A stretch of 64,000 nucleotides of DNA. It comes from Urechis unicinctus. Taxonomy: Eukaryota > Annelida > Polychaeta > Xenopneusta > Urechidae. Of the stretch, positions 13,059-43,865 are shown piece by piece (position 1 is the stretch's first letter; each line of letters begins with the position of its first letter). Location of the stretch: NCBI GenBank assembly GCA_034190875.2, contig CM067353.1, positions 31,014,559 through 31,078,558 of the forward strand. The letters run 5' to 3'. A model generated the notes under the pieces. The model worked only from the letters and a program-made list of their open reading frames with translations. It was not told the DNA's origin and made no database searches. Made by a program: the position numbers and the translations under genes.

Positions 13059-13158
13059 NNNNNNNNNNNNNNNNNNNNNNNNNNNNNNNNNNNNNNNNNN
13101 NNNNNNNNNNNNNNNNNNNNNNNNNNNNNNNNNNNNNNNNNNNNNNNNNNNNNNNNNN
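13059..13158. other. Assembly gap, 100 N
   Basis: Exactly 100 N. Together with the second 100-N run it isolates a separate contig that has been scaffolded into place. The true distance and even the adjacency are unknown. Confidence 0.99.
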
Positions 13159-13559
13159 AATCTTTTATCGCCAAACTAGATGTCACATCTATCAACACGA
13201 AATGAGTCAAACATAGCATACCCGTTTGAAAGAACTAGTCCTTTATGTTCTGTTTTTTGTAATAAAACATGTTCTCGTGACTTCAAAAATTGCTTCATGG
13301 TACATTGGCCAATTAGTCTAGATTTTCAGCCAGTGTATGGAGAAGTCTTTGTTATGATTTTATACCAACCACCTTTTAACAATTCATTAGCATTAGTTTA
13401 AAGCATTATATATGATGAATGAATATCATGTTCAAACTTAGTATTAATTGACCTAATGAACACCCCTGAAGTTGTGAATATTACCATGCATTCACTTCAT
13501 ATCAGGAATAAAATATCTCTTATCTCTTCACACTTTTATTCAAGAATGAAAGATTTAAA

Positions 13560-13830
13560 AATTCGGGCGGTCCGTTAGAATCGTTGACAACTCGCAAAGA
13601 TCAAAGCGAGCGTCTGCGATTGATCCCAGTGCGATTGAAAGCGTCATGAATGCTCCGCGCATACGTCCATAGGGACAGATATCCAAGGAGACGCAAACAT
13701 CAAAGAATTAACGCGAGGGACTTAGACGTGACGTGAGGGAAAAAGACGTCCCGTTCCGACGTTACTCGTCAAAGATCACATGAAGGGTACAACTCTACGA
13801 TCGCACGATTTGGTTTTTTTTTTCATTATG
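13560..13830. promoter_or_regulatory. ACGTCA/TGACG-rich cluster of sub-repeat A
   Basis: A cluster of ACGTC, GACGT and CGTCA half-sites is repeated in all units, for example GGACGTCAC at about 24956-24963 in unit 4. These are the core of ATF/CREB and related bZIP sites. It may be an enhancer between successive homeobox genes. This is inferred from motif density only. Confidence 0.35.
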
Positions 13831-14274
13831 TCTAGATATAGGGAGTTGAGGCGACTATAAAGATCGGCGGGAAAACAAGTCGAATGACATTTTCAATGTT
13901 TTATTGACCTAGATGTCACCTCGGTGAGACCATAGAATGGCATCGATCGATTAGATTCGTAAACCTGTCTTCACTTTTGGAACCACGTTACTAGGGCAAA
14001 TTAATCATGACGTTACAACAGCTGGTAACATGGAAAGACCAAAAAAGATAGGATATATAGTTGACACAAATTTGTCAATTATGGCTCTGTTTTGTAATCA
14101 CTTGACAATTCAGGTAGCATTATTTTAAAGGCATATATAATGATCACGAATTATTGACTCTTGAATGTGACTAGTAAAACCCTAAAGTTGTCAATATAAC
14201 AATGCAGTAATGCATATCAAGAATAAAAGATATCTTCAAGCTTTTATAAAGTGTTAAAGGTTTAAAATACTATG

Positions 14275-14490
14275 TCCGTTCGTACGTTGACAACTCGGAA
14301 AGATCATAGCTGGGTGTCGCCGATTGATCGCAGTGGCCTTGAAGCGTCATGATGCTCCACGCATACGTCATAGGGACAGGGATCACAGGAGACGGAACAT
14401 CAAAGACGTGACGCGTAGGAACTACAGACGTGAGGTAGGCAACGACGTCACGTCCCATCGTTACTTGTCTAAAGATCACGTGAAAGAAAC
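14275..14490. promoter_or_regulatory. CRE-like and E-box cluster of sub-repeat B
   Basis: Each unit has ATACGTCATAGGG, GACGTGACGCG, a full or near-full CRE and CACGTG about 30 bases further on. Perfect TGACGTCA stands at 18191-18198 (unit 2), 25643-25650 (unit 4) and 29268-29275 (unit 5). CACGTG follows near 14477, 18226 and 25679. Conservation of these words in noisy sequence is notable, but no binding is shown. Confidence 0.4.
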
Positions 14491-14876
14491 TACATCTAAG
14501 ATCGACGCGGTTTCGGCTGTTTATTAATGTCTAGATATCAGAGGAGTTTAGTAATACCACAGATCGGTGCTTGTGATTTACAGAGCTTTCAACAAAGCAA
14601 ATCGTGCACTGCATACATATATAATTCCAATCAGAAGGATATTGTGTGTTATGATACGTTATTACTGAAATGGCTATATTGTACCATCACCTGGATCTGA
14701 AAATCCGAAGAACCTTTCCTGGAACAATGAATGCTTTGATGCTGTGAGATTAGCATCAAAGCAAAGTGGCCATCAATTGAGTTTGAAATAACAGAATTGG
14801 TCTGACTTATATTGCTGCTAAATGATATGTGATTTACAAAAGACACCGAAAACAAAACGGAATGACATTTCCATGT

Positions 14877-14882
14877 TTTATT
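14877..14882 (-). terminator. Polyadenylation signal of homeobox gene copy 1
   Basis: AATAAA on the minus strand, about 190 bases past the predicted stop. Equivalent signals are at 18649-18654 (unit 2) and 22400-22405 (unit 3), in the shared context ATCAATAAAACATGGAA. Confidence 0.6.
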
Positions 14883-15071
14883 GATAATAATCATACCATA
14901 ACAGATAATGCCCAAAAACATAAAAGCATCAACTCCAAAAAATGCTGATAAAATGTTGTAGATTCGCACCATATATTGTTAGCACCCAGGTTTGACAACA
15001 GTGGGGTACAGTATAACACGAGGTGAGTTTATTGACGATGCTTCTTGCTGGCAAGCTCATGAAATCCATGA

Positions 15072-16369
15072 TCAGAGCGTTGACGCTTGTTACTGACCCC
15101 TTGCGTGGCAAATTTTCCCGATGGTCCCTTTTTTGTTAAACCCAGGGTTTCTGTGATTAAACAAACCCCTTCTTTAACCTGCTCCACAGTTTTATTTGGC
15201 CAGCGGGGGGCGATACCTCACAGGTGTCCTAGGAGGGGGAGGGATGTCCCCTTTTTCGCTCGTCCAGTTCGTCATGATTTGTAAAAAGCTAGTGGAGAAG
15301 GAGTTTAGGTGGGGACTTGGAGTTTTCCCGAGACTGGGATGTAAAAAAATTGGGTGGGTTTTACAAGTGGACATTTAGGCGCCGTTCTATGGACATCAGC
15401 CTGTGGAGACATTCCTGGGGCACAGGCTTTTTTTCCTGATGTCCTTGATCATAGGGATTGGCAGGGACCCTCTGAGGCTTAGGTGCCCTCCTGTAGGGAA
15501 ATGCTTTCTTCTGCTTTCTAGTGCTAAGACTAGCAGCGTGTGCCCCCCAGGCTTCCAAGGACTTCCCACACGATTGAGGGAGCTCGTGATGAATTGGTGT
15601 GGTAGCTGTTATACCAGCATGCTGCCAAGGCGCCATGGCGAATCTCGCAGGGCTCGGTTGCGAGCGCTCTCCATGTCGCCAGCCGCATGCAGTAGAAGGT
15701 ATTGAGTTCTGTCACCTTTTGCTGTTGCTAGATTGCAGCACAGAAAGCGGATCTGAAGTAACTGGTGCGGCCAGTGAGCGAGGCTGATTTGTTCCATTTG
15801 TGGTTCTTGTTTCATCAAATCCCCCCGTGGGCCCCGGAGTGTGAAGGTCGCGAAATCACAGTTGAGTGCGGATTGGGAACTGGGACGAATGGACGAGGCA
15901 TACCACAGGTTGTAAGTGTAAATTTGTTTGTAGAAGGAGTGTATGCATAACTGCTGGGAAACATGAGATGCAGATTCCCGTTGTGTACCAAATTGTCATT
16001 CCGTGTGTTAAAGGGTGTCCAGGTTGTCAACCCCCCTGGCAGCGGTGGGAGTAAAAGCAGTCAAAGTGGGGTTTTGACGCCTCTCGTGGGGAACCTTTGG
16101 CTTATGGAACTGCTTTTGGGGAATGGTGGTGTCCTGGGACATTTCTGGGATGCTGCCTCATAGTCTTGTTGCTTGGGTGACAGCTAGGGCCCCAAGAACT
16201 TATTTTTCCAAACAACTTTGCTTCAGTGGGCAATCGATCAGTGGCGCAGTATCCCCCTTTTAAAAAGTGGGGGTTGGAGGAAGCCTCAAGCTCTGGGAAA
16301 TTTTTCAGGTCGCCAACTTAAGTTCCTCCCGCCGATATCAAACAAGCCACCACAGCTTCCCGTAGCCAT
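15072..16369 (-). pseudogene. TALE-class homeobox gene, array copy 1 (frame broken by indels)
   Basis: Minus-strand gene with the same layout as the other copies: candidate ATG 16369, an acidic N-terminal segment, a probable intron, then a long exon whose C-terminus is a homeodomain (about 15330-15110). Recognisable pieces are SLEAWGAHAASLSTRKQK (about 15560-15510) and TVEQV before helix 3. The copy is interrupted by many short insertions, for example extra C and T runs in the homeodomain at 15130-15240. These lie where the other units have intact codons, so some or all are likely sequencing errors. The stop TGA is at 15074-15072. Confidence 0.6.
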
Positions 16370-16499
16370 GACGAATATATGCCAAAATAGAGCCACCTTT
16401 GATTCGTTTGGGGAAGATAATGTCTAGAGATTTGTGATTCTAAAAAAAGTTTGAAATCTGTTAAGTTCAAGACTGGGAAAGATAATCCTTTACTCTAGC

Positions 16500-16566
16500 C
16501 CCGCTTATATGTACCGTCTAGTGCGGAAAACTGCTAAACCAAACAACGGGGCCTGTTCCTGATTGG
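16500..16566 (-). promoter_or_regulatory. Core promoter of homeobox gene copy 1
   Basis: On the minus strand, CCAAT (16566-16562) lies about 55 bases upstream of TATAAG (16509-16504), a classical spacing. The same pair can be traced in the other units, for example the inverted ATTGG at about 24058 in unit 3. Confidence 0.5.
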
Positions 16567-16919
16567 TTGAGGTAAAAGGTGTGAAGGAATTCAGTTCCCT
16601 TATTGGACTTATCCGTCATGTGCGTCTTCAGGGGCCTGTGCGTCGTTGACTAGCAAAGAAAACAAAACGGGGTTTGGGGGTAACGTCTCAAACCCTGTGA
16701 TCCAACTTTCACCTAACGTACAACCATACTAAAGTGACGTTTAAAAGAAAGGTGTTGAACTCAAAAAGCAAAAACTTCTTTGAAAGGAAAATCAAAGAGA
16801 AAAGAAAGGAAACCGATAAGCTCTTGTTGAATTTGGTAATGACCTTCAAGGGGATGAAAATATGGTAATTTAAATGTTCATTCCCAAAGTAAGAACTCCC
16901 CGCAAATCCTTTTCTCAGC

Positions 16920-19900
16920 AATCTTTTTATCCCCCAAACTAAGATGTCACCGCTATCAAAAACGAAATGAGTTTAAACATAGCATAAACAGTTGAAAGAA
17001 AAATGTCATTTATGGTTCTGTTTTGTAATAAAAAATGTTCATCTGAACTTAAAAAATTTCTTCATGGTACATTGGGCCCAAATTTGCCTAATTTCAGCCA
17101 GTGTAGGAGAAGTCTTTGTTATGATTTTATACCCCCTTTACAATTCCCTTAGCATTATTTTAAAGCATTTATAATGAATAATGAATGGGATGTTCAACTT
17201 TAAAATGAATTGGGCTAATGAAAACCCCATAAGTGTGAATTACCATGCATTCATGCCTATCAGGAATAAAATATTCTCCACAGCTTTTTTATCAAGAATG
17301 AAAGATTTAAAATTCGCGGTCCGTTAGTTTTCGTTTACAACTCGCAAAGATCAAAGCTGACCCTCCCCCATTGTCCCAGGCATTGAAGCGTCATGATGCG
17401 TCGCGCATACGTCATAGGACAAAATATCAAAGGAGAACGCAAACACAAGAAATAACGCTTTGGGACTTAACGTGACGTGAGGAAAAAGGGAAAAAGGGCG
17501 TCACAGTTCCGACGGGCTTCGTCAAAAAATCACATGAGGGTAAAAATTCTACGATCGACCCATTTCGGGGTTTTTTTATTAGTGTCTAGATATTAGAGGT
17601 TTAGCCCATATCAAAGATCGGCGGGAAAACAAGTCGAAATGACATTTCAAGTTTTATTGACACCTAGATGTCACCCTCGGTGAGACCAGAGAATGGCATC
17701 ATCGATAGATCTGTAAAACCCGTCTTCCATTTTGAACCCCAAAGTTACTAGGCAAAATTAATCATGACGTTACAGCTGGGTTTCATGAAATGACCAAAAA
17801 CATAGGCATATATAGTATGAACAAAATTGGGTTTAAATTTTGGGTCTGTTTTGTAATAACTTGCATTCGTAGCAAATTTTTTTAAGGCATTAAAATAAAG
17901 ATGAACGATGTCATTTACTTGAAATTTACTAGTAAAAACCCATAAAGTTGTCAATTACATGTCATTAATGCATATCAAGAATAAAAATTCTTTAGCTTTA
18001 TAAAGTAGTTAAAGGTTTAAAAATATGTCCGTTAGTAACGTTGACAAATCGGAAAGATCATAGCTGGGTTTCGCCGATTGATCGCATGCATTAAGCGTCA
18101 TATGCCCCCGCATACGCATAGGGACAGGATCACAGGAGACGCGAAAATCAAAGACGTGACGCGTAGGAAAATCAACGTGAGGAAGGGAACTGACGTCACA
18201 GGGCCCACGTTTACTTGTCTAAAGATCACGTGAAAGGAAACTAAATCTACAGATCGACGACGTTTCGGCTGTTTATTAAATTTCTAGATATCAGAGGATT
18301 TTTTAATACCACAGATCGGTTGCTTGTTGATTTTACAGAGCTTTTCAACAAAGCAATCGTGGCACTTGCATACATATATAATTCCAATGCGAAGAGATAT
18401 TGTGTGTTTATGATCGTTAATTACTGAAATGCTAATATTGTACCATCACCTGGATCCTGAATCGACGAACCTTTCTCTGGAAGCATGAAGGCTTTGAGTT
18501 TATGCTGTGAGTTAGCCAAATCAAGCAGTAATGTGGCCATCACTTGAGGTTTGAAATACAGAATTGGTCTGACTTATATTGCGTGCTAACATGATTATGT
18601 GATTTACAAAAGACAACCGAGAAACAAAACGGAATGACATTCCATGTTTTTATTGATAATACTCATACATAACAGATAATGCAAAAAGCATAAAAGCATC
18701 AAATCAAAACATGCTATAAAATTGTTAGAATTCGCACCATTAATTGTTAGCCACACGAGGGATTGACACAAACGATGGATACCAGGAATAACACGAGGTG
18801 AGTATATTGACGAGCTTCTTGCTGGCAAGATGCTGAAATCACCTGAATGCAGAGCGTTTGAAGCTGTTACTGACTCTGCGTTTGGCAATTTCCTGGATGG
18901 TCCTTGTGTACCACCCCCCCCCCCCCCACCTTAAGCGGTTTCTGTCTGATTAGCAAACACTTCGTTACCTGCTCCCCATTTATGTTGCCAGCGCGGGCGA
19001 TAACCTCACAGGTGTCATTGGAGGGGTAGGGATGCTCCTTGTTGCGCTCTACCGTTCGTCTGATTTGACAGCTAGTGAGAAGGAGTTCATGGGACTTGGA
19101 GGTTTCAGAGACTGGTGATGTATGATTGGGTGGCTTTGACCAGTGGACATCTGAGGCGCCGTTTCTATGGACTCAGCCTGGTGGAACTTCCTGAGACACA
19201 GTGGGCGTTTGTCCTGATGTCCTTGATGCCAAGGCATGCCGTACCATCTGAGGCTTGAGTGACGTCCTGTAAAGGGAAATGTTTCTGCTTTCTAGTGCTA
19301 AGTAGCAGCGTGTTTCCCCAAAGGGATTCCAAAGGGCTTCTCCACACGATTGAGCAGCTCGTATAATATGGTCGTGGTAGCTGTTTTTTACCAGCATGCC
19401 CGCCAAGGCGCCATGGCAGAAACTCGCAGGGCTCGGTAGGCGCCTCTCCATGTCGCCAGCCTGCATGCATAGAAGGTATTGAGTTCTGTTTACCTTCTTG
19501 CTGTTGCTAATTTTCAGCCTAGAAAGCGGATCTGAAGTAGCTGGCCACAGTGAGCGGAGGCTGATTTGTTTCCATTTTTGGTTCTTGTTTCCCAAACCCT
19601 GCCCAGGAGTGGGGAAGGGTAAAGCTGGAAGAGTCACAGTTGAGTGGGATTGCAATGGAGAAACGATGGACGAGGCATACACACAGGTTTTAGATGTAAA
19701 TTTTTTTGTAGAAAGGGGGTGTATGCATAACTGCTGAAGCTAGAAGCAGATTCAATTGGTGATCACAATTTGCATTCCGGGGGTGTTATAAATGGCTGTC
19801 CCCCGTTGTCAAACCCACTGCAGCGGGGGAGAAAAGCAGTCGAAAGTGGTAGACCCCCTCTTCGTGGTAAAAAAAACCCTTTGGGTTAATGGAACTGGCT

Positions 19901-20709
19901 TTTGGTAGAATGGTGGTGTCCTGGGACATTTGGGATGCTTGGCCTCATAGTCGTGTTTTCTTTGGGGGGCAGCTGAGCCTCAAAAGAACTTATTTTTTTC
20001 CCCAAACAAAATTTGCTTCGGGGGACCATCGATCGTGGACGCAGTAAAACCCTTTTAAAAAATGGGTTGGAGGAAGTCCTCAAACTCTGGGAATTTTTCA
20101 GGTCGCCACTTAGAGTTCCTCCCGACTCGTATCAAAAAAGCCACCAAAAGCTTTTAGTAGCCATGACGAAATGATGCACAAAATATGAGCACACTTTGGG
20201 TTCTTTGGCAGATAAAGTCTAGAGATTTTTTGATCTATCTAATGATTTGGGAAAACTGTTAATTCAGAGACTGAATGATAATCCTTCACTCTAGCTACTT
20301 ATTGTACCGTCTAGTGTCTTTAAAACTGCTGACCAGCAACGGGGCCTGTTCCGATTTGGGTTTGGGGAACAGGTGTGGGAAAAGGGAAAGCAGTTCCCTT
20401 ATTGGACTTTTTTCCGTCATGTGCGTATTCAGGCGCCTGTGCGTCGTTGACTAGCAAGAAGAACAAACGGTTTTTCGTAACGTCTCAAACCCTGTGATCC
20501 ACGTCACGCTAACGTACAACCAAAACTAAAGTGACGTTTTTAAAAAAAAGGTGTTGAACTCATAAAGCCAAGACTTCTTTGAAGGAAAAACAAAGAGATG
20601 AAAAGGAAAACCGATAAGCTCTTTTGGGAATTGGTAATGACCTTCCCGGTGATTAAAATATGGGGAATGAATGGTATCAACGTAAGAACTCAGCAAATCA
20701 GTTGCTCAC
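16920..20709 (-). repeat. Array unit 2
   Basis: Second unit, about 3.79 kb. Same order of parts as unit 1. It carries a 14-C run at 18914-18927, inside the homeodomain-coding region, that is absent from the other units and is probably an error. Confidence 0.85.
18850..20164 (-). pseudogene. TALE-class homeobox gene, array copy 2 (frame broken by indels)
   Basis: This copy shows the loop between homeodomain helices 1 and 2 without error: codons for HPYPSNDT at 19034-19011 on the minus strand, continuing as CEVIARAG. The PYP motif, with the W of helix 1 eight residues before its first proline, is the spacing of three-amino-acid-loop-extension (TALE) homeodomains such as MEIS. In SIX proteins that W is five residues away. 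Upstream, frames with SDPLSRL, SNSKKV, CMQAGDMER and SYHDHI correspond to the long second exon. The ATG at 20164 and the stop region near 18850 are set by comparison with the other units. Confidence 0.65.
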
Positions 20710-23700
20710 AATCTTTTAATCTCCCCCACTAGGGTGTCACAGCTATCAACACAAATGAGTCAAACCCTAGCATAAACAGTTGAAAGAACCCGTCATTTAT
20801 GGTTCTGTTTTGTAATAAAACATGTTCTCTGACTTAAAATTTCTTCATGGTACTTGGCCAAATTTGCCTGATTTCAGCAGTGTAGGGAGATTTTTTGTTT
20901 GATTTATACCACCTTTACAATTCATTAGCATATTTTTTAAAACTTATATAAAGATAAATGAATACATGTTCAACTTATTGAATTGACTAATGAAAAACCC
21001 CTGAAATTGTGAATATTACCATGCATTCATGCATATCGGATAAAATATCTCCCCAGCTTTTCTAAGAGTGAAAGATTAAAATTCGCGGTCCGTTAGTAAA
21101 CGTTGACAACTCGCAAAAATCAAAGCGGAGCGTCGGCCGTTGATCCCAAATGCATTGAAAACGTCATGAGCGTCGCGCATACGTCCAAGGGGCAGATCTC
21201 AAAGGAGACGCCAACATCAAAGAAATAAAGCGTAGGGACTTAGACGGACGTAGGGAAAAGGACGTCACATTTCCGACGTTAAATCGGCAAAGAAACACAT
21301 GAGGGTAACAAATTCTACGATCGACACGATTTCGGGTTTTTTCATTAGTTCTAGATATTAGGGAGTTTTAGCGATATCAAGATCGGCGGGAAAAAACAAG
21401 TCGAAATGAATTTCAATGTTTATTGACACCCAGATTCACCTCGGTGAGACCAGAGAATGGGATCATCGATAGATCTGTAAACCTGTCTTTCCCTTTTGAA
21501 CCACGTTACTAGGCAAAATTAATCATGACGTTCAAGCTGTTAACATGAATGACCAAAAACATAGCATATTTTAGTGAACCCAAAATTTTTAATTATGGCC
21601 CGTTTTGTTTAAAAACTTGACATTCACGTAGCATTAATTTAAGGCTTATATATGATGAACGAATGTCATTTAAATGAATGACTAGTAAAAACCCATAAAG
21701 TTTTTTCATTTTTACAATGATTAAAGCATTCAAAAATAAAATCTTCAGCTTTTTAAAATAGTTAAAGGTTTAAAAAACCCATGTCCTTAGTAACGTTTTA
21801 CAACCGGAAAGATCATAGTGGTGTCGCCGTTGGTCGCAGTGCATTGAGCGTCATGATGCGCCCACGCATACGTCATAGGGACAGGGATCACAGGAGACGC
21901 GAACATCAAAGACTTTACGCGTGGAAACTCAACGTGAGGTAAGGCAACTGACGTCCCCAAGTCCCATCTTACTTGTCTAAAGATCACGTGAAAGAAACTA
22001 AATCTAAGATCGACGCGGTTTTCGGCTGTTTATTAATGTCTAGATTAAACAGAGGAGTTTAAGTAATACCACGATCGGTGCTTGTGATTTAAAAGAGCTT
22101 TTAACAAAGCAAATCGTGCACTGCATACATATATAATTCCAATGCAGAAGGATATTGTGGTTTATGAAAACGTTTATTTACTGAATGCTAAATTTGTTAC
22201 CACACCTGGGTCTGAATCGAAGAACCTTTCTCTTTGGGAACAATGAATGCTTTGAGGCTGTGGTTAGCAATCAAAGCAAATGTGGCCCTCAAATTGGGGT
22301 TTGAAATAACAGAATTGGTCCCGACTTATTTGGCGTGCTAAAAAAAGATTTTGTGATTTACAAAAGAACCGAGAAAAAAACGGAATGACATTTCCATGTT
22401 TTATTGATAATAATCATACCTAACAGATAATCAAAAGCATAAAACATCAACTCAAACATCTGATAAAATGTTGGGAGATTCGCACCTATATTGTTAGCAC
22501 ACGAGGTATTGACAACATGGGGTACAGATATACCGAGGGATGTTATGACGAGCTTCTTGCTGGCAAGCTGCTGAAAAACACATGAATCAGAGCGTTTGAC
22601 GCTTGTTCTTCCCGCTCTGCGTTTGGCAATTTCCTGGATTGTCTTTGTGTTCCCCGACGGGTTTTTTGTGATTAGCAAACCACTTCTTTCCTGCTTCCCC
22701 CATTTTTTGTTGCCAGCGGGGGCGATAACCTCACAGGGGTCATAGGGGGGAGGGGTGCTCCCCTTTTTCCTCTTTCCAGTTCGTCATATTTTTACAGCTA
22801 GTGAGAAGGGGTTTCAGGGGGGGACTTGGAGGTTTCAGAGACTGGTGATGTATGAGTGGGTGTTTGACAAGTGGACACTGAGGCGGGGCCCCCTTCATGG
22901 ACAAACAGCCTGTGGAGACTTCCTGGGGGACACAGGCGTTTGTCCTGATGTCCTTGTGCCATAGGGATGCCAGTACCATCGAGGCTTGAGGTGACGTCCT
23001 GTAGGGAAATGTTTTCTGCTTTCTAGTTCTAAGACTAGCAGCGTGTGCCTCAGGCATTCCAAGGACTTTTCCACACGATTGAGCAGCTCGTGATGAATTG
23101 GTCGTGGTAGCTGTTTATACCAGCATGCTGCCAGCGCCATGGCGAATCTCGCAGGGGTCGGTAGCGAGCGCTCCCATGTCGCCAGCCTGCATCAGTAGAA
23201 GGTATTGAGTTCTGTCCCCCTTCTTTCTGTTCTAGATTGCAGCCTAAAAGCGGAATCTGAAGTAGACTGGTGGCGCACGTGAGCGGAGGCTGATTTGTTT
23301 TCCCTTTGGGGTTCTTTTTTCTCACCGTGCCCCGGAGGGGTGAGGGTACGCTGGAAGAGTCCCCAGTTGAGTGCGGATTGCAACTGGGAGACAATGCGAT
23401 CAAACTCCACAGGTTGTAAGTGTAATTTGTTTGTAGAAGGAGTGTATTCAAAAACTGCGAAGCTATGATAGCAGATTCAGATTGGTGATCACAAGTTGCA
23501 TTCCCCTGTTTTTATAATGGCTGCCCGGTTGTCAAACCCACTGGCAGCGTTTGGGAGTAAAAGCAGTCGAAAGTGTAAGTTAGACGCCTCTTCGTGGTAA
23601 CCTTGGCTTAATGGAACTGGCTTGGGAGAAAGGTGGTGTCCCGGGACATTTTTGGGATGCTTTGCCTCATAGTCGTGTTGCTTGGGGAAGCTGAGCCCCC

Positions 23701-24391
23701 AAGAGAATTAGTTTTTCCAAACAACTTTGCTCCGTGACAATCGATCAGTGGAACCAGATCCTTTACAAGTGTGGGTTGGGGAAGTCCTCAAGCTCTGGGA
23801 ATTCTTCAGGTCGCCAACTTAGAGTTCCTCCGACTCGAATCAAACAAGCCCCAACAGCTTCAGTAGCCATGACGCAATGATGCACAAGATATGAGCACAT
23901 TTGATTCGTTTGGCAAAGGGTAATGTCCCCAGAGATTTTGTGATTCTAATGATTTGAATCTGTTAATTCAGAGACTGATGATATCCTTTACCTCTAGCTA
24001 GCTTATTGTACCGTCTAGTGTCTTTAATACTGCTAGACCAGCACGGGGCCTGTTCCTATTGGTTTAGTAAAGGTGTGAAAAGGAAAGCAGTTCCCTTATT
24101 GGACTTATCCGTCATGTGCGGATCCGGCGCCTGTGCGTCGTTGACTAGTCAAAGAAGAACAACGGTTTGCGTAAAGCTCAAACCCCGTACCAACGTACAA
24201 AGCAACGTACAACCAACTAAGTACGTGTTAAAAAAAGGTGTTGGAACTCATAAAAGCAAGCTTCTTTGAAAGGAAATCAAGAGATGAAAGGAAAACCGAT
24301 ACCTTTGTTGAATTTGGTAATGACCTTCAGGTGATGAAATAGGTAAGGGAAAAGGTATAAACGTAAGAAACTCCCCAAATCAGTTGCTCAG
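20710..24391 (-). repeat. Array unit 3
   Basis: Third unit, about 3.68 kb, with the same parts in the same order. Confidence 0.85.
22587..23870 (-). pseudogene. TALE-class homeobox gene, array copy 3 (frame broken by indels)
   Basis: The minus-strand candidate start ATG 23870 reads MATEAVG before a one-base loss. The second exon includes EAHAASLRTRKQKTFPYRTS, SLKPPSP, LLTSC and NMTNWKEEKGEHPSPL (helix 1 and loop of the homeodomain with errors), showing that helix 1 is continuous with the upstream exon. The C-terminal part TIQEIAKRRAG lies at about 22650-22610. The stop TGA is at 22589-22587. Function is inferred as a DNA-binding transcription factor. Confidence 0.6.
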
Positions 24392-27300
24392 CCCAAACTT
24401 TTCATCGCAAACAAAGATGTCCCCAGCTTCAACACGAAATGAGTCAACCATAGCATAAACAGTTGAAAGAACCCGTCCCTTTATGGTTCTGTTTTGTAAT
24501 AAAACATGTTTCCCCTGACTTTAAAATTCTTCATGGTACATTGGCCAAATTTGCCTAGATTTTTAGCCAGTGTAGGAGAAGTCTTGTTATGTTTTATTTC
24601 CACCTTTAAAAATTCATTAGCATTATTTTTTAAAGCAGTATATAATTTATGAAAAGAAAAGCTGTTCAATTTTAAAAATTGACTAATAAAACCCATGAAG
24701 TTGTGAATATTACCATGCCTCATGCATATCAGGAATAAAATATCTCCCCCCAGCTTTTTTCAAAAAGTGAAAGATTTAAAAATTTGCGGTCTTTAGTATC
24801 GTTGACAATCGCAAGTCAAACTAGCGTCGCCCATTGATCCCAGTTTCATTGAAGCGGTATGATGCGTCGCGCATACGTCATAGGGACAGATATCAAAAGG
24901 GGACGCAACAAACATAATTAACGCGTAGGGGCTTGACGTGACGTGAGGGAAAAAGGACGTCACAGTTCCGACGTTACTCGTCAAAAGATCACATGAGGGT
25001 AAAAAATTCTACACGACGACCGATTTCGGGGTTTTTTTTATTTTTGTCTAGATATTTGAGGAGTGAGCGATATCAAGATCGGCGGAAAACAAGTCGAAAT
25101 GACATTCAATGTTTTTGACACCTAGATGTCACCTCGGTGAGAACAGAGAATGGCTCATCGATAGATTTTGTAAACCTTCTTCCATTTTGAACCACGTTTA
25201 CTAGGGAAAATTAAACATGAGTTACAGCATGTTAACATAAATGGCCAAAAACTAGCATATATAGTTGAAAAAATGTTTTAAATTTTGGCTCTGTTTTGTA
25301 ATAACTTGACAAATTTAGTAGCATTTTTAAGGCATTATATAATGATGAACGAAAGGCATTTACTTGAATTGACCCAGTAAAAACCCATTAAAATTGTCAA
25401 TATTTCAATGCATTATGCTATCAAAAATAAAAAATATCTTCAGCTTTTATAAAATAGTTAAGGTTTAAAAACTATGTCCCCTTAGTAACGTTGACACTCG
25501 GAAAGATCATGCTGGGTGGCGCCATTGATCGCAGTGCATTGAAGCGTCTGATGCGCCACGCATACGTCATAGGGACAGGGATCACAGGAGCGCGAACATC
25601 AAAGACGTGACGCTTTGGAACTCAGACGTGAGGGAAGGCAACTGACGTCACAGTCCCATCGTTACTTTTTCTAAAGATCACGTGAAAGAAAATAATCTAA
25701 GATCGACGCGGTTTTGGCTGTTATTAGTCTAGATATCAGAGGATTTAGTAATACCACAGATCGGTGCTTGTGATTTACAGAGCTTTCAAAACAAATCGTG
25801 CACTCATACATATAATCAATGCAGGATATTTGTGTATATAGTTATTCGAAATCTAATATTGTCCATCACCTGGATCTGATCGAAGAACCTTTCTCGGAAG
25901 CAAGATGCTTGATCTGTGAATTCAAACAAACAAGGGCATCATTGATTGAAAACAGAATTGGTCTGACTTATATTTCGTGCTAAAATGATTATGTGATTTA
26001 CAAAAGAACCGAGAAAACAAAAGGAAGACATTTCCCCTGTTATTGATAAATTTATACAAACAGATAATGCAAAAGCATAAAAGATAACTCCCAAAACATG
26101 CTGATAAAAAGTTGTAGATTGCACCATTATTGTTAGCCCCACGAGGTATTGAAAACAGTGGGATACAGGATATAACGAGGTGGTTTATTTACGAGCTTTT
26201 GCTGGCAAGCTTTCATGAAAACACATGAATCAGAGCGTTTGACTGACGCTTGTTACTGATCGCGTTTGGCAATTTCCGGATTTGGGCTTTTGGTACCGAG
26301 CGGTTGTTTCTGTGATTAGCAAACCACTTCTTTACCTGCTCCACAGTTATGTTGCAGCGGGGCATAACCCCACAGGTGTATAGGGGGGTAGGGATGCTCC
26401 TGGGTTCGTCGTACCAGTTGTCAGATTTGTACAGTAGTGAGAAAGGGGTTCAGTGGGGATTGGAGGTTTTGAGAAGGTGAGTATGAGTTGGGTGTTTGAC
26501 CCAAATGGACATCGAGGCGCCGTTTATGGACATCAGCCTGTGGAGAAAATTCCGAGCACAGGGTTTGTCCCGAGTCCTTGATGCCATAGGCATGGCAGTA
26601 CCATTGAGGCTTGAGGGACGTCCTTTGGGAAATGCTTTCTGCTTTCTAGTGCTAAGAATAGCAGGTGTGCCTCAAGGAAATTCAAGGACTTCCACACGAT
26701 GAGAGTCGTGATGAATATGTTTGTTTGGGAGCTGTTTATACCAGCATGCTGCCAAGGCGCCATGGCAGAATCCGCAGGGCTCGGTAGCGAGCGCTTCCAT
26801 GTCGCCAAAACCCGCATGCAGTAGAAGGGTTTGAGTTCTGTCACCTTCTGCCTGTTGTGGGTAATTGCAGCACAAAAAAGGCGGATTTAGTTTGACTGGT
26901 GCGAAGGGAGGGGGCTGATGTTTTTCCATTTTGGGTTATTGTTTTCACCGTGCCCAGGGGTGAAGGGTAAAGTGGGGAAAAGCAAGTTGAGTGCGGTTGC
27001 AACGGGAGACAGATTTGGGCGAGCATACCCAGGTTGTTAGAGTGTTTAATTTTTTGTTTTTAGAAGGAAATGTATGCATAACTGCGGGAAACTATGTATT
27101 TCAATTCAGATTGGTGATCACAGTTGCATTCCGTGTGTTATAATGGTGTCCAGGTTGTCAAACCCATGGCAGCGTGGAGTAAAAGAGTCGAAAGTGAAAT
27201 TTGACGCCTCTTCGTGTAACCTTGGGTTAATGGGAAATGGCTTTGGGTAAATGGGGTGTCCTGGGACATTTCTGGGATGGTTGCCTCATAGTCGTGTTGT

Positions 27301-28034
27301 TGGGTGAAAAGCTGAGCCTCAAGAGAAAAATTAGTTTTCCAAACAACTTTGCTTTTTGACAATCGATCAGTGGACGCAGGATCCTTTCAAGGTGGGGTGG
27401 AGGAAGTCCCTCAAGCTCTGGGAAAATTTTCAGGTCGCCAAATTAGAGTTCCTCCCCGACTCGTATCAAACAAGCCAAAAAACAGCTTCAGTAGCCATGA
27501 CGAATATGACAAGATAGAGCACACTTTGATTTGTTTGGCAAGATAATGTCTAGAAGATTTGTGTTTTAATGATTTGAAAAATTTTTTAAGTTCAGGACTG
27601 AATGATAAAAAAACTTCACTTAGCTAGTTATTGTAAAGTTAGTGTCGTGAATATGCTAGGCCAGCAACGGGGCCCGTTCCTGATTGGTTTAGGGGAAAAG
27701 GTTTTTGAAAGGAATGCAGTTTTCCCTATTGGAATCCGTAATGTGCGTATTCCGGCGCCGGGGCGGCGTTTACTAGCAAAGGGAAAAAAAACGGGTTTTC
27801 GGGACGTTCTCAAACCCCGGGATCCAAGTACACGCAACGTACAACCATACTTTAAAAGGGGGCGGGTAAAAGAAAGGGGGTTTGACTCATAAAAGCAAAG
27901 ACTTCTTTTAAGGAAAATCAAAGAGATGAAAAGGAAAACCCTAAGCTCTTGTTTAATTTGGGAATGACCTTTAGTGATGAAAAAATGGTAAGGGAAATGG
28001 TACAACGTAAGAACTCAGCAATCAGTGCTCAGAC
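24392..28034 (-). repeat. Array unit 4
   Basis: Fourth unit, about 3.64 kb. It contains perfect TGACGTCA (25643-25650). Confidence 0.85.
26230..27498 (-). pseudogene. TALE-class homeobox gene, array copy 4 (frame broken by indels)
   Basis: The minus-strand candidate start ATG 27498 begins MATEAV. The loop codons HPYPP are visible at about 26400-26385. Much of the second exon is scrambled by short indels. The stop TGA is at 26232-26230 in the same context (CGCTCTGATTCATGTG) as copy 3. Confidence 0.55.
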
Positions 28035-31000
28035 AATCTTTTCATCGCCAACTTGATTTTTCACAGCTATCAACACGAAAGAGTCAAACATAGAATTTAA
28101 AAAAGTTGAAAGAATGCATTAGGGTTTTGTTTTGTAATAAACAGTTCTCGACTTAAAATTTCTTCATGGAATTGGCCAATTAAACCTAGAAATTTTAGCC
28201 AGTGTAGGAGAAGTCTTTGTTATGATTTTTACCACCTTTTCAATTCATTAGCATTATTTTAAAGCATTATAAATGATGAATAAACATGTTCAATTATGAA
28301 TTGCAAAGAAACCCATGAAGTTGTGAATCTTACCATGAATTCCTGCATACAGGAATAAAAATCTCCACACTTTTATCAAGAAATGAAAGATTTTTAAAAA
28401 TTTGCGGTCCGTTAGTATCGTTGACAACTCGCCCAAAAATCAAAAATGAGCGTCGCCGATGATCCCAGTGCATTGAAGCGTCTGATGCGCGCGATAAAGT
28501 TTATAGGGGCAGATTCAAAGGAGACGCAAACATCAGAAGTAACGCGTAGGGAAATTAGCCCTGATGAGGGAAAAAGGACGTCACAGTTTTCCCACCCTTA
28601 CTCTTTAAAAAATCACATGAGGGTAACAATTCTACGATCGACACGATTCGGGTTTTTTTTATTTGTGTTTTAGTATAGGGGTTTAGCGGGTATCAAAAAT
28701 GGCGGGAAAAAAAGTCGAAATGGGCTTTCAATGTTTTATTGACACCTAGATTTTCACCTCGGTGAGACCAGAGAATGGCACATCGATAGATCTGTAACCT
28801 GTTTCCATTAACCACGTTACTAGGCAAAATTATAAAGACGTTACAGCTGTTTTAAAATGAAGGCCAAAACATAGCATATATAGGTTTAAAAATTGTTAAT
28901 TAGGCTCTGTTTTGTAATAACTTACCCAAATTTAGTAGCATTTTTTTAAGGATTTTTAAAGGGTGAACGAATGCATTTTCTTGAATTGACTAGTAAAAAC
29001 CAAAAAGTTGTCAATATACAAAGCATTAATGCATATCAAGAATAAAAGATATCTTTAGCTTTTATAAAGTAGTTTAAAGGTTTTAAAAAACTATGTCCGG
29101 GTTGTAACGTTGACAACTCGGAAAGATCATAGCTGGGTGTCGCCGATTTATCGCAGGCATTTGAAGCGTCATGATGCGCCACGCATACGTCATAGGGAAG
29201 GGATCAAGGAGACGCGGGAAAATCAAAGACGTGACGGTAGGAAAAAGACGTGAGGTTTAAAGGGAACTGACGTCACGTCCCATCTTACTTGTCCTTTAAA
29301 AATCACGTGGGAAAGAAATAAACTAAGATGACGCGGTTTCGTCGCTGTTTATTAAGTCTAGATATCAGAGGAGTTTAGTAATACCACAATCGGTGTTGTG
29401 ATTTACAGAGTTTCAACAACGCAAATCGTGCACGGCATACAGATATAATTCCAATCAGGGAAAGGATTGTGTGGTATGATACGTTTATTACTAAAGATAA
29501 TATACATCACCTGGGTCTGAAACAAGAACTTTCTGGAAGCAAGAATTTGATGCTGTGAGATAGCAAAACAAAGCAAATTTTGGCCATCATGAGTTTGAAA
29601 TAAAAAGAATTGGTTTGAAATATTGCGTGCTAAAATGATTAATGTGATTTACAAAGACACGGAGAAAACAAAACGGAATGACATTCCATGTTTTAATGAT
29701 AAATATCTCATAACAGATAATGCCCCAAAAAAATAAAAGCATTTAACTCAAAACATGCTGATAATGTTGTAGTTCGCACCCTATATTGTTAGCACACGGG
29801 GGTTTGACAACAGTGGGATACAGGATATACACGAGGTGATTTATTGACGATGCTTCTTGCTGGCAGCTGCATGAAAACACATGAAACAGAGCGTTGACGC
29901 TTTTTACTGACTACTTTCGTTTGGCAATTTTTCCCGGATGGTCTTTGTGTTACCTGAGCGGTTTCTGTGATTAGCAAACCACTTCTTTACCTGCTCCACA
30001 GTTATGTTGCCAGCGCGGGCGATAACCTCAAAGGTGTCAAGGGGTGGTAGGGATGCCCTTGTTTGCGCCTCGTACCAGTTCGTCATGTTTTTACAGCCTA
30101 GTGAGAAGGAGTTCAGTGGGACTTGGAGGTTTCAGAGACTGGTGATGTATGAGTGGGTTTTTTGACAAGTGGACATCTGAGGCGGGCCCTTCTATGGACA
30201 TCAGCCTGTGGAGACATTCCCGGAACACAGGCGTTTGTCCTGATGTCCTTGGATGCCATAGGCATGCCAGTACCATCTGAGGCTTGAGGTGACGTCCGTA
30301 GGGAAAGCTTTCTGCTTTCTAGTGCAAGACTAGCAGCGTGTGCCTCAAGGCATTCCAAGGACTTCTCCACACGATTGAGCAGCTCGTGATGAATATGGTC
30401 GTGGTAGCTGTTTATACCCGCATCTGCCAAGGCCCATGGCAGAATCCGCAGGGCCGTAGCGAGCGCTCTCCATGTCGCCAGCCTGCATGCATGAAGGTAT
30501 TGAGTTCTGTCACCTTCTTGCTGTTTCTAGATTGCAGCATAAAAGCGATCTGAAGTAGACTGGTGCGCACAGTGAGCGGAGGCTGATTTGTTTTCCCTTT
30601 GTGGTTCTTGTTTCATTCACCGTGCCCAGGAGGGTGAAGGGTACGCTGGGAAAAGTCACAGTTGAGTGCGGATTGCAACTGGGAGACAGATGGACGAGGC
30701 ATACCACAGGTTGTAGAGTGTATTTGTTTGTAGAAGGAGGTATGCATAATCTGCTGAAGCTATATATGCAGATTCAGATTGGTGATCACAATTTGCATTC
30801 CGTGTGTTATAATGGCTGTCCGGTTGTCAAACCACTGGCAGCGGTGGGATAAAAAGCAGTCGAAAGTGAGTAAGACCTCTTCGTGGAACCTTGGCTTAAT
30901 GGAACTGGCTTGGTAGAATGGTGGGTCTGGGACATTTCCTGGGATTGCTTTGCCTCATAGTCGTGTTCTGGGTGACAGCTGAGCCTCAAGAACTTAGTTT

Positions 31001-31654
31001 TTCCAACCAACTTTGCTTCGGATGACATCGATCAGTGGACGCAGTATCCTTTACAGTGTGGGTGAGGAAGTCCTCAAGCTCTGGGAATTCTTCAGGTCGC
31101 CAACTTAGAGTTCCTCCCGACTCGATATCAAACAACCACCAACAGCTTCATAGCCATGACGAAATGACAAAATTTACCATTTTATTCGTTTGGAAAAATT
31201 GCTAGAATTTGATTCTAAAATTTGAAATCGTTAATTCAGAGACTGAATGAAACCTTCATTAGCTAGTTTTTGTACCGCTAGGTCGTGAAAACTGTAGCCA
31301 CAACGGGCCGTTCCTGATTGTTGATAAAAATTGAAGAACGTCCCTTTTTGGGTTATCCGTCAGTGCGATTAGGCCCTGTGCCTCGTTTTCTACAAAAAAG
31401 AAAAAACGTTTTTTTTTCGTAACGTCTAAACCCCTTGATCCAACGTACACGCAAAGTAAACCTCTAAAAATGGACGTGTTAAAAGAAAAGGTGTTTTAAC
31501 TATAAAAGCAAAGACTTTCTTTGAAAGGGAAAAACAAAAAGATGAAAGGAAAACCGATAAACTCTTGTTGAATTTTTTGGGAAGACCTTCAGGGGATGAA
31601 AATTGGTAATGAAAAAGGTATAACGTAAGAACTCAGCAAAACATTTTTCCAAAA
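28035..31654 (-). repeat. Array unit 5
   Basis: Fifth unit, about 3.62 kb. The part 29900-31100 is among the cleaner stretches of the array and gives the best view of the gene. Confidence 0.85.
29887..31157 (-). pseudogene. TALE-class homeobox gene, array copy 5 (best homeodomain)
   Basis: This is the clearest copy. On the minus strand, a frame from 30086 carries the second half of a homeodomain: EVIARAGNITVEQVKK followed by the recognition helix WFANHRNR (29981-29958) and SGNTKT. W, F, N and R stand at the invariant homeodomain positions 48, 49, 51 and 53, with alanine at 50. Upstream in the same exon are ELLNRVEKSLECLEAHAAS and SPVSETSKS (30400-30115), and further upstream LLGTVNETRTT (about 30630). 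A probable splice acceptor lies near 30646. A TATA/initiator promoter precedes candidate ATG 31157. Comparison of copies indicates a protein of roughly 280-300 residues with an acidic N-terminus and a C-terminal TALE homeodomain, a likely nuclear DNA-binding regulator. One-base differences still break the frame. Confidence 0.75.
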
Positions 31655-33426
31655 ATCTTTTCATCGCAAAACTATATGTCACAGCTACAACACGAAATGA
31701 GTCAAAAAAGCAAAAAATTTTTAAAAACGTCATTTATGGTTCTGTTTTTTTAATAAAACATGTTCTTTGACTTAAAATTCTTTCATGGTACATTTGGCCA
31801 ATTTTGCCCAGATTTACCAGTGAGGAGAAAATTTTGTTATATTTTATACCACCTTTACAATTCATTAGCTTAAATTTTTAAAAAATATAAAGATGAAGAA
31901 ATCGTTCAACTTATAATGACTAAAAAAAAACCCCTGAAGTTGTGAATTACCATTCAATGCATACAGGAATAAAATACTCCCCAGCTTTTTCAAAAAGTGA
32001 AAGATTTAAAAATTTCCGGTCCGTTTTTGTACGTTGACAACTCGAAAGATCAAAAATGGCGTCGCCGATTGATCCCCGGCATTTAGCGTCAATGGTCGCG
32101 CATAGTCAAAAGGGCAGATATCAAAGGGGAACGCAAACATCAAAGAAGAACGCGTAGGGGCTTGACTGAGGAGGGGAAAAAGGGCTCACAGTTCCGCGTT
32201 ACTGTCAAAAGATCACTGAGGGTAAAAAATTTTACGATCGACCCATTTCGGGTTTTTTCATTAGTTTCTAGATTTAAGGGGGTTTAGCGATCAAAAATCG
32301 GCGGGAAAAACAAGTCGAAAGAATTTTAATGTTTTATTGACACCCAGATTCCCCGGTTTAAACCCAAAAATGGATCATCGATGATCTGTAAAACCCGTCT
32401 TCATTTTTAACCACTTTTAGGCAAAAAATTAACATGACGTTAAAAAAGTTTAAAAGAAATGGCCAAAACATAGCAATATAGTTAAAAATTTTAATTATGG
32501 TCTGTTTTGTAATAACTTGACAAATTTTAGCATTTTTTTAAGCATTATATAAAAGATGAACGAATCATTTCTTAATTACTAGTAAAAACCTTAAGTTGTC
32601 AATTTACAAAGCATTAAGTACAAGAAAAAAAATATCTTTACTTTTATAAAAAGTTTTAAAGGTTTTTAAAAACATGCCGTTTTGTAACGTTTTACCTCGG
32701 GAAAATATGTGGGTGTCCGATTGAGGCAGTGCAATTTAAGCGTCATGATTCGCCACGCATAGTCAAGGACAGGGATCAGGAGACCGAACATCAAAAGACT
32801 GACGCGTAGGGAAACCGACGGAGGTAAGGCAATGACGCACGCCCATCGTTACTTTTCTAAAGATCAGTGAAAAAACTAAAACTAAGTCGACGCGGTTTTT
32901 GGCGTTTATTAATGTCTAGTACAAGGATTTAGTAATACCACAATCGGGTTGTATTTTCGAGCTTTTAAAAAAGCAAATCGTGCACTGCATCATATATAAT
33001 TCCAAAGAAGGAATTTGTTTATATACGTTTTTTTCAAATGCTAATATTTTACCAAACACCTGATCTGAATCGAAGAACCTTTTTGGAAGCAATGAACTTT
33101 TATCTGTGAGATTAGCAATCAAAGAAATGTGGCCATCAAATTTAGTTTTAAATAAAAAGAAATTTGGTCTGATTTATTGGTGCTAAAAAAATTTGTGATT
33201 TTCAAAAAACCCCAGAAAAAAAAAGGAAAAGACATTTTCCCGGTTTATTTATAATAAACAACCCTAACAGATAATGCAAAAGCATAAAATCAATCAAAAA
33301 ATGCTGATAAATGTTGTAGATTTTGCACCCAAAATTTTTTTTGCCACAGGTATTGGGAAAAAGTGGGTACGGTTTTCAAGGGGATTTATTTACGATGCTT
33401 TTTGCTGGGAAACTCATAAATCAATA

Positions 33427-34744
33427 AACAGAGCGTTACGTTGTTTTCACTTGCGTTTTTCAATTTTCCTGGATGGGTTTTTTGTTACCCGAGGGTTTTG
33501 TGATTACAAACCACTTTTTTTACCTCTCCCCCATTATTGCCACGCGGGCGTAACCCCACGGGGTTAAAAAGGGGGGTGGGATGCTCCTTGTTCGCTCTAC
33601 CAGTTCGTCATTTGTACGCTAGTGAAAGGGGTTTAGTGGGGATTTGGGGGGTTTCAAGATGGGTTTAGTATGATGGGGGTTTTTTTAAAAGTGGAATCTG
33701 GGGGGGCCGTTTTATGGACAACCTGTGGGGACATTCCGGAGCACGGTTTTTTGATTCTTGATGCCATAGGCATGCCTACCATTGAGTTTAGGGGACGTCC
33801 GTAGGGGAAAGCTTTCTGCTTTCTAGTGCTAAAACTAGCAGCGTGTGCCTCAAGGCATTCCAACTTCTCCACACGATTGAGCACTCGTGATATATGGGCG
33901 TGGTAGCGTTTTTATACCAGCATGCTGCCAAGGGGCCATGGGAGAATCTCGCAGGGGTCGGGTTGCGAGCGCTCTCCATGTCGCCAGCCTGCCATGCAGT
34001 AAGGTATTAATTCTGATCTGGACCTTCTTGAGCGGTAAAGTTTCTAGATATAGCAGCGACTAGAAAATCGGGATCTGTGAAGGATAAGGACTGTGGGGTG
34101 GCGCACATTGAGCGGAGGCTGATTTATTTCCATTATGTGGTTCTGGTTTCACCGTGCGCTTCGTAAAAAAATGTGAGAGGGGTGTAAACGCGTGGGGAAA
34201 GAGTTGCACAGTGGTCGACAAGTGGCTCAGATTGCAACTTGTGTGAGAACGATTGTGGGGGGGAGCGAAGGCATACCACAGGTTGTAGAGTGTAATTTGT
34301 TTGTAGAGGAGTGTATGCATAACTGCTGAAGCTATGATATGCAGATTCAGATTGGTGATCACAAGTTGCATTCCGTGTGTTATATGGCTGTCCAGGTTGT
34401 CAAACCCACTGGCAGCGGTGGGTAAAAAGCAGTCGAAAGTGAGTAAGACGCCTCTTCGTGGTAACCTTGGCTTAATGGAACTGGCTTGGTAGAATGGTGG
34501 TGTCCTGGGACATTTCTGGGATGCTTGCCTCATAGTCGTGTTGCTTGGGTGACAGCTGAGCCTCAAGAGAACTTAGTTTTTTCCAAACAACTTTGCTTCA
34601 GGTGACAATCGATCAGTGGACGCAGTATCCTTTACAAGTGTGGGTTGGAGGAAGTCCTCAAGCTCTGGGAATTCTTCAGGTCGCCAACTTAGAGTTCCTC
34701 CCGACTCGATATCAAACAAGCCACCAACAGCTTCAAGTAGCCAT
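33427..34744 (-). pseudogene. TALE-class homeobox gene, array copy 6 (clean first exon)
   Basis: The first-exon region is clean here. A minus-strand frame at 34773-34573 reads LLEAVGGLFDIESGG, TLSWRPEEFPELEDFLQ and ASTDRLSPEAKLFG, an acidic, proline-containing segment with hydrophobic residues spaced like a transactivation domain (inference). In copies 3 and 4 the candidate ATG joins this frame as MATEAVGG. Here, one extra A gives ATGGCTACTTGA, so either this copy has a null start or the start is further upstream. A donor-like CTT|GTAAAG lies at about 34640. The homeodomain end (33640-33455) is heavily corrupted. Confidence 0.6.
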
Positions 34745-34846
34745 GACGAATATGATGCACAAGATATGAGCACACTTTGATTCGTTTGGCAAGATAATGT
34801 CTAGAGATTTGTGATTCTAATGATTTGAAATCTGTTAACGTTCAGA

Positions 34847-34883
34847 GACTGAATGATAATCCTTCACTCTAGCTAGCTTATAT
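34847..34883 (-). promoter_or_regulatory. TATA box and initiator of homeobox gene copy 6
   Basis: On the minus strand, TATAAG (34882-34877) is followed by TCAGTC (34852-34847), an initiator whose A (34850) lies 32 bases from the TATA start. This is the spacing of a focused RNA polymerase II promoter. The implied 5' UTR to the candidate ATG at 34744 is about 105 bases. Confidence 0.55.
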
Positions 34884-34922
34884 GTACCGTCTAGTGTCGT
34901 GAATACTGCTAGACCAGCAACG

Positions 34923-35022
34923 NNNNNNNNNNNNNNNNNNNNNNNNNNNNNNNNNNNNNNNNNNNNNNNNNNNNNNNNNNNNNNNNNNNNNNNNNNNNNN
35001 NNNNNNNNNNNNNNNNNNNNNN
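34923..35022. other. Assembly gap, 100 N
   Basis: Exactly 100 N, closing the array contig. The sequence to the right starts inside copy D of the dispersed element, with no array sequence. Confidence 0.99.
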
Positions 35023-35097
35023 GAACAGATCCAAGTATATTGATTGTGCCCTTGATGCCATGATCTGTTATTTAATCCAAGTTAACACAGTTGTGAT

Positions 35098-35547
35098 CTA
35101 TTCGTTGCTCATCATCAGTCCTGCAATCTCGTTCTCCAGTTCGCGTATTCCAGCTAAAAGCGCCTGTTGAACCGCACGTTCTTCATCGAGCTCCTCCGCA
35201 GCTTGTTTCATTGTGCTGTCTACCAATGCGTCAGCCTTGCGTTTTGCTTCAGTTAGTTCACGACGAGCTTCTCTTTCTGTCCGTTTTACTGAGGCATTAA
35301 GTGCACGCAGCTCGTCGGACGTCTTTGATTTTAGCTGTCTTGCCTTGATATGGGTTTGCCTCTTTACTTCCTGTGCATATTCCAGGCGCTTTGACTGCTC
35401 CGATTCAGTTTGGCTCTGATTGTATGCATTTATAGTAAATGTCGCGATTCGGAGAGCTATAGGAAGGATATCTGCTGCCGAAACCATCATCGAATTCCTG
35501 CGGCAAAAACAAATAGCATCACGAATATGAGTACCTCCCGTGGTCAT
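35098..35547 (-). CDS. Coiled-coil protein of the Polinton-like family, open frame
   Basis: A 149-residue open frame, the only uninterrupted member of this gene family in the window. It begins at ATG 35547; a second ATG after 19 residues (MMVSAADILPIALRI) may be the real start, because similarity with the other copies begins there with a short hydrophobic stretch. From about residue 50 it is highly charged and helical (QSKRLEYAQEVKRQ, KTSDELRALNASVKRTE, KRKADALVDSTMKQAAEELD), ending in ELENEIAGLMMSNE. This pattern predicts a long coiled coil with a possible N-terminal membrane-contacting segment. I recognise no named family. The open frame may mean recent function or chance survival. Confidence 0.6.
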   Translation of the reverse strand: MTTGGTHIRDAICFCRRNSMMVSAADILPIALRIATFTINAYNQSQTESEQSKRLEYAQEVKRQTHIKARQLKSKTSDELRALNASVKRTEREARRELTEAKRKADALVDSTMKQAAEELDEERAVQQALLAGIRELENEIAGLMMSNE

Positions 35548-43784: not shown

Positions 43785-43865
43785 GCGTGAACAGCTTCAA
43801 GTATATAGATTATGCCCTTGAGACCATGAACCATAGTTTAATCCAGAAGTTAACATTGTTGTTAT

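Follow-up and report, generated by a model that had tools for sequence, protein, structure and literature searches.

A tandem array in the genome of the annelid Urechis unicinctus consists of units of about 3.7 kb, each of which carries one homeobox gene. We describe this array as it appears in a 64,000-nucleotide stretch (C12:31014559-31078558 of the source genome, hereafter the window), and in cleaner copies elsewhere in the same genome. With kilobase-sized units that are arranged head to tail, near-identical and present in many copies, the array is a macrosatellite, which is how a first-pass annotation of the window had read it. We consider it probable that its units are self-contained and carry a functional TALE gene, specific to spiralians and of the SPILE A/C type, whose likely role is that of an embryonic transcription factor made in bulk.

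Results

The polished unit encodes a TALE homeodomain protein

A homeodomain search of the source genome (1.19 Gb in 926 contigs) returned 58 matches, some of which are two pieces of one copy. Clean copies of a 3.73-kb unit (the C2-type unit) lie at C2:52613217-52622593 and on the small contigs C485, C542 and C809, and C448 is a second noisy array contig beside that of the window. Gene copies of this unit number 3 on C2, 4 on C809, 5 on C485, 3 on C542, 4 on C448 and 6 in the window, at least 25 in total; the homeodomain search itself picked up 4 of the 6 window copies. Over 3,798 columns, the alignment of the 11 full polished units shows 33 with substitutions and 77 with indels, and the mean substitution identity of the units is 99.74% (range 99.5-99.97%).

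The unit contains an intronless open reading frame (ORF) of 444 residues (445 in two copies). The frame is intact in 8 of the 15 copies in which the ORF region is present, so that the refuting condition named in the first-pass annotation, polished units without an open frame, was decided in favor of its reading. The homeodomain of the polished protein reads LAVQIMTNWYERNKEHPYPSYDTCEVIARAGNITVEQVKKWFANHRNRSGNTKTIQEIAKRR. It is the only homeodomain in the protein, has a three-residue loop extension with PYP and matches Pfam Homeobox_KN with 38.4 bits (cut-off 24), which places it in the TALE class, in agreement with the first-pass annotation. The best relatives among PDB sequences, searched with a query joined by hand from the noisy window consensus, are PKNOX1, PBX1/Exd and MEIS (E 3e-6 to 3e-5). 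The loop motif HPYPSNDT, previously read in the window at 19034-19011, has the position and letters given for it; its N is a base error, because the polished copies read HPYPSYDT. A helix stretch of the NITVEQVKK type, also noted before, lies in a single frame of unit 5 at 30008-29940 and reads NITVEQVKKWFANHRNRSGNTKT.

Substitution differences shared by at least 2 of the 11 polished units avoid the ORF (0 of 15, the ORF being 36% of the unit; binomial P 0.0013), which supports constraint on the C2-type protein. Differences private to one unit fall in the ORF in 4 of 18 cases.

A second array on C13 contains a sister gene

At C13:70793380-70842969 we located units of 2,754 bp with 17 homeodomain copies and one stretch of 4,500 undetermined bases (N). 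Among the 15 full units, the other 14 are 98.5-99.8% like the first. The gene has a first exon of 63 nt (62 in one unit) and an intron of 127-133 bp (mostly 132) bounded by GTAAGT and TTGCAG, and encodes 425 residues. A lone C13-type copy lies 400 kb from the array.

The C2-type and C13 genes have in common an N-terminal WRPE-PEL-FLQP stretch, a conserved region upstream of the homeodomain (PADRE-like, see below) and the homeodomain itself, which is 89% alike. Within the homeodomain the proportion of silent differences (pS) is 0.94 and that of replacement differences (pN) 0.054, so that silent sites are saturated, and the unit DNA matches (E up to 1e-3) in two coding pieces only, of 249 and 117 bp. 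We therefore regard them as two old sister genes, each of which was built into a separate array.

Relatives of the array protein are spiralian orphan TALE proteins

Database searches returned 19 related proteins with the hand-joined query and 31 with the polished protein, and a profile of 36 relatives extended this to at least 67. Four relatives carry an organism name, namely Paralvinella (annelid), two Mytilus (mussels) and Dicrocoelium (flatworm); the Mytilus and Dicrocoelium proteins were reached by the relatives' profile only, Paralvinella also by the polished protein. The array homeodomain shares 63-79% identity with 39 of 40 database relatives and 35% with a C16 gene labelled canonical-looking by eye. 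It is nearer to spiralian orphan TALEs than to the canonical TALE classes, and the spiralian connection drawn in the first-pass annotation is borne out.

The relatives carry a conserved region of ∼88 columns upstream of the homeodomain. Earlier surveys describe a PADRE domain of ∼87-90 residues in this place in the SPILE A/C clade (PMC8524836) and in mollusc TALE clades VI and VII (PMC5322547). We count the mollusc TALE clades VI, VII, XV and XVII (PMC6118893, PMC5322547) with the SPILE A/C-clade genes. We liken the ∼88-residue region to the PADRE domain by place and size alone and call it PADRE-like; the literal letters PADRE occur in none of 40 relatives. In the relative P0023 the region (residues 153-233) is predicted to form three long helices (predicted local distance difference test, pLDDT, ∼96), and its structural matches are at chance level, hence no fold is assigned. 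With its TALE homeodomain and upstream PADRE-like region, the protein fits the spiralian SPILE A/C-type TALE genes. In a homeodomain tree of 64 columns, which holds no named SPILE rows, the array genes group, at low resolution, with relatives that bear the PADRE-like region, apart from two-homeodomain genes.

Genes of this two-homeodomain type (TALE-IV/SPILE-B, described in PMC6118893) are also present and locally multiplied in this genome. C5:61593893-61652775 contains four closely similar TALE-IV/SPILE-B-like genes, one with its second homeodomain split between frames. They differ from the array genes in having two homeodomains per protein, in standing 13-29 kb apart and in homeodomains only 24-46% like that of the array.

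Both arrays share a candidate promoter block

Upstream of both start codons (-235 to -187 and -230 to -183) lies the block CCAATAAGG-N12-TTTCACACC-N4to5-CCTCAACCAATCA. The local alignment of the 48-bp block scores 48, whereas none of 500 dinucleotide shuffles exceeds 34. Its exact pattern has 31 matches in the 1.19 Gb, all 31 of them inside arrays (16 on C13, 4 each on C542 and C809, 3 each on C2 and C485 and 1 in the window), whereas the reversed control pattern has none in the whole genome. A looser pattern finds 38 sites, which are the 31 in arrays, 6 in a C11 minisatellite and a single C7 site, with 1 match for the control. The exact window match, upstream of gene copy 1 at 16560-16606 (minus strand), reads CCAAT / TTCACACC / CCAAT; the other window copies miss the pattern because of base errors. 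TTCACACC is similar to a T-box half-site, and CCAAT to an NF-Y site.

C2-type units also have CATATAA at -139, and AATAAA follows the stop codon by 146 nt in the 3.73-kb unit and by 118 nt in the C13 unit. As every unit combines a putative promoter block, an ORF and AATAAA, each looks like a complete transcription unit.

The window contig contains five units and two partial pieces

The array contig (13159-34922, minus strand, unpolished) fills the whole interval between two gaps of 100 N (13059-13158 and 34923-35022), and the borders and copy number of the array are invisible in the window because it runs from gap to gap. Self-comparison reveals full-length off-diagonals at steps of ∼3.6-3.8 kb (76-79% identity, ∼10% gaps), and six segments first cut from the array (3.27-3.79 kb each) give the same pairwise values of 76-79% with ∼10% gaps. 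Tandem Repeats Finder (TRF), whose period limit is 500, left the array in the window undetected for that reason. Alignment to the polished unit resolves the contig, correctly reported before as nearly six units, into a 1.87-kb gene-less piece, five units and a 1.54-kb gene-bearing piece. The gene is thereby present six times, always on the minus strand.

The gene-less piece, 13159-15028, corresponds to spacer and upstream sequence (unit positions 1876-3727). Unit 1 (15029-18804) holds gene copy 1, of SPILE type and with its frame broken by base errors, at 15029-16369 (homeodomain 15098-15292, PADRE-like region 15496-15758). Its spacer provides an example of an internal duplication (span 17125-18319), in which two copies of ∼490 bp, 17125-17621 and 17849-18319, are 83% alike in the polished unit. 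The AATAAA at 18649-18654 (minus strand) belongs to the gene copy that starts at 18805, at the distance of 146 nt past the stop seen in the polished unit. In unit 2 (18805-22545) the gene spans 18805-20164 (homeodomain 18875-19075, PADRE-like region 19272-19537), with the promoter block at 20353-20405; in unit 3 (22546-26184) the gene lies at 22546-23870 (22616-22801 and 23004-23262) and the block at 24057-24102; and in unit 4 (26185-29840) they occupy 26185-27498 (26259-26438 and 26627-26891) and 27681-27732. These three blocks, all on the minus strand, contain base errors. Unit 5 (29841-33385) carries gene copy 5 at 29841-31157 (29912-30101 and 30301-30555), and its block site, 31315-31350, is corrupted beyond recognition. 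The last piece, partial unit 6 (33386-34922, unit positions 1-1512), is cut before the promoter block and holds gene copy 6 at 33386-34744 (33451-33622 and 33804-34091).

Base quality in this contig is low, as the earlier call for polishing implied. The seven window pieces disagree with the polished unit by 14.3-21.6%, with a summed ratio of transitions to transversions of 1093:1765. Compared with their own consensus, the window segments give a ratio of 981:1531, and the differences are mostly 1-base indels in clustered runs. Runs of at least five A are 4.8 times commoner in the window array than in six polished units, the consensus of the six segments is 95.8% identical to the polished unit, and the longest open frame in the gene region of any raw window copy is 188 residues. 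These differences look like raw-read error. Decay as their cause is ruled out by the difference of ∼0.3% among polished units against 14-22% for the window pieces, together with the substitution ratio, the A-runs and the recovery of the unit in the consensus.

A hidden Markov model (HMM) built only from the 19 database relatives recognizes four of the six copies among 2,824 six-frame window fragments (E 6e-25, 1e-13, 2e-11 and 0.002). Copies 1 and 6 yield sub-threshold fragments only (6.9 and 4.7 bits), while fragments from the rest of the window reach E 0.66 at best. All 12 tblastn matches of the polished protein in the window (E up to 1e-3) lie inside the six gene copies. Rfam has no match in the window at gathering thresholds.

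The flanks of the array contain other repeats. An open reverse-transcriptase frame of 462 residues at 39627-41015 (RVT_1, 6.7e-30) suggests that the flanking contig is of better quality than the array. At 3025-5165 broken frames lie beside a Capsid_N match of 16.7 bits, below the cut-off of 24, and together they are perhaps the remains of a Polinton/Maverick-like element; by motif we take these frames, which have no Pfam match, to resemble a protein-primed DNA polymerase B. Members of a diverged repeat family are found at 35023-36628, 43789-44317 and 869-1847, with a 149-residue frame that has no Pfam match above cut-off, adjoining a 239-bp tandem repeat.

Discussion

Clustering of SPILE genes is already known. 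Eight near-identical tandem SPILE A/C homeodomains in the limpet Lottia gigantea and seven near-identical SPILE A/C genes on one scaffold of the chiton Acanthopleura granulata, with smaller groups elsewhere, are on record (PMC8524836), and the first-pass statement that no equivalent had been described is therefore wrong. The mollusc genes resemble those of our arrays in their TALE homeodomain, their upstream region of ∼87-90 residues and their lineage-specific, near-identical clustered copies. Our arrays differ from the mollusc clusters in that whole units of 3.73 and 2.75 kb are repeated, spacer included, with at least 25 gene copies of the one type and 17 of the other in the assembly, in two arrays that share a promoter block. 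In open-licence PMC papers we found nothing on macrosatellite-type SPILE units, on a genome with two arrays of this kind or on the promoter block, and the whole-unit arrays, their pairing and the block are apparently undescribed in that literature.

The primate macrosatellite DUX4/D4Z4 likewise has one homeobox gene per unit of ∼3 kb, head to tail, and acts in the early embryo; DUX4 copy number and silencing matter in disease. To our knowledge, homeobox macrosatellites are known mainly from mammals. The arrays described here have the same layout, and their family would suggest an embryonic role as well. However, DUX4 belongs to another homeobox class and has two homeodomains, whereas the array protein has a single TALE homeodomain and is not of the DUX type. 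In further distinction from D4Z4, each unit has its own AATAAA, and the distance to the nearer scaffold end is 21 Mb for the C2 array and 8.7 Mb for the C13 array. Histone gene repeats, in which short, self-contained genes stand in tandem and are expressed in bulk early on, are a model for the proposed dosage role, although they encode structural proteins and the arrays a transcription factor.

We envisage each unit as a self-contained transcription unit in which the promoter block, the short intronless 444-residue ORF and the AATAAA signal are combined with ∼2.4 kb of spacer and upstream sequence. The units would be kept near-identical by unequal exchange or gene conversion, and selection would hold protein and promoter constant; near-identity and signs of constraint are what we observe. 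The most likely role would be rapid, abundant production of a single embryonic transcription factor, in that many short, identical copies with promoters of their own could allow a quick burst within the short cleavage cycles, in the manner of histone arrays. According to PMC8524836, zygotic expression of SPILE A/C genes begins in limpet and mussel at the 4-16-cell stage, with fast turnover of some signals, and limpet SPILE genes specify blastomere fates or quartets; according to PMC5322547, all but two of the novel TALE genes of the oyster are expressed from egg to blastula. Early expression is thus documented for the family in these three animals, and the present copies may share it.

A scaffolding error at this position would be compatible with a functional SPILE macrosatellite. 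The unit may be real but at home on C2 or elsewhere, with its C12 placement an error, and we lean very slightly toward this view; that the home is C2 in particular, and C12 possibly a scaffolding error, is about evenly balanced. Gaps of a fixed 100 N flank the array contig of the window on both sides. On C2 a stretch of array runs without gaps and has degraded matches (86% and 81%) at its left edge, and relic unit pieces, mostly of 90-92% identity, lie at C2:51414724-51463448, 1.15 Mb from the C2 array. Four further small contigs consist of array, one of them (C809) with 382 bp of other sequence. True dispersal to C12 may instead account for the placement. The repeat breaks or ends at nearly equal unit positions (1512, 1511 and 1500) at window position 34922, at C485:1 and at C809:15251, and the 382 bp that C809 runs past the repeat perhaps mark a true array edge.

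Ordinary recent tandem duplication, as in the limpet and chiton clusters, is a serious possibility that we place somewhat below an even chance. It would attribute near-identity to youth and unequal crossing-over and assign no special dosage role, and it draws on the near-identical clustered SPILE A/C genes of several molluscs (PMC8524836) and on the high homogeneity of both arrays. Yet the sister genes are old, as their saturated silent sites indicate, and in both cases it is nevertheless an entire unit that is repeated in an array. That this happened twice, and with a promoter block in common, is no more than suggestive of amplification that was favored rather than neutral.

Several observations weigh against a functional SPILE A/C gene. 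In the assembly, frames are broken in 7 of 15 C2-type copies and in 12 of the 15 full C13 units, the remaining 3 being intact. All 18 indel columns in the ORF of the 11 polished units are private to one unit, and no ORF indel column is common to two of the 15 C13 units; such private indels fit leftover read error but also private decay. A 265-residue ORF makes up 29% of the C13 unit and contains 1 of 5 shared substitution differences (P 0.55), no sign of constraint, and 24 of 39 private ones, above expectation. This excess may stem from sequence quality, because 19 of the C13 ORF deviations fall in three of the 15 units, two of which are also indel-rich. Finally, the homeodomain tree fails to separate out a SPILE subclade, with 30 of 49 inner branches drawn open. 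The broken frames and the private substitutions, which are no rarer in the C13 ORF, could point to satellite DNA of a dead homeobox gene, homogenized by turnover and unexpressed. We find this unlikely: intact copies of 444-445 and 425 residues exist, shared differences avoid the C2-type ORF, the two array homeodomains differ almost solely at silent sites, and the splice signals, the AATAAA and the promoter block have all been retained.

We reject as highly improbable a homeobox-bearing transposable element or a contaminant as the source of the repeat: mobile-element remains do lie in the flanks, such as the reverse-transcriptase frame at 39627-41015, but Pfam gives no match above cut-off for nine other frames (51-96 residues) around the polished ORF and its spacer, the chromosome-size contigs C2 and C13 contain arrays of the unit or its sister, homeodomain copies more than 70% alike are found in the arrays and in one lone C13-type copy only, and the named relatives are all spiralian, although the whole-unit DNA search was too limited in scope to exclude dispersed unit pieces.

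Beyond the functional SPILE macrosatellite itself, we tentatively propose a broader reading, which we consider doubtful as a whole. DUX4-like homeobox macrosatellites may have arisen independently in spiralians, twice in this genome, as copy-number amplifiers that boost the zygotic output of a transcription factor in a burst during the first cleavages; one ancient, array-specific promoter block would drive all units, so that the embryonic dose of a blastomere-fate regulator would depend on the length of the array. Arrays that collapse or stay unpolished in assemblies may help to explain why SPILE counts differ between surveys, and the shared candidate promoter block offers a concrete starting point for studying the activation of SPILE genes. 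If a second lineage has reached the DUX4 layout with another homeobox class, one likewise active in early embryos, this would suggest that tandem amplification is a recurrent solution for early embryonic regulators.

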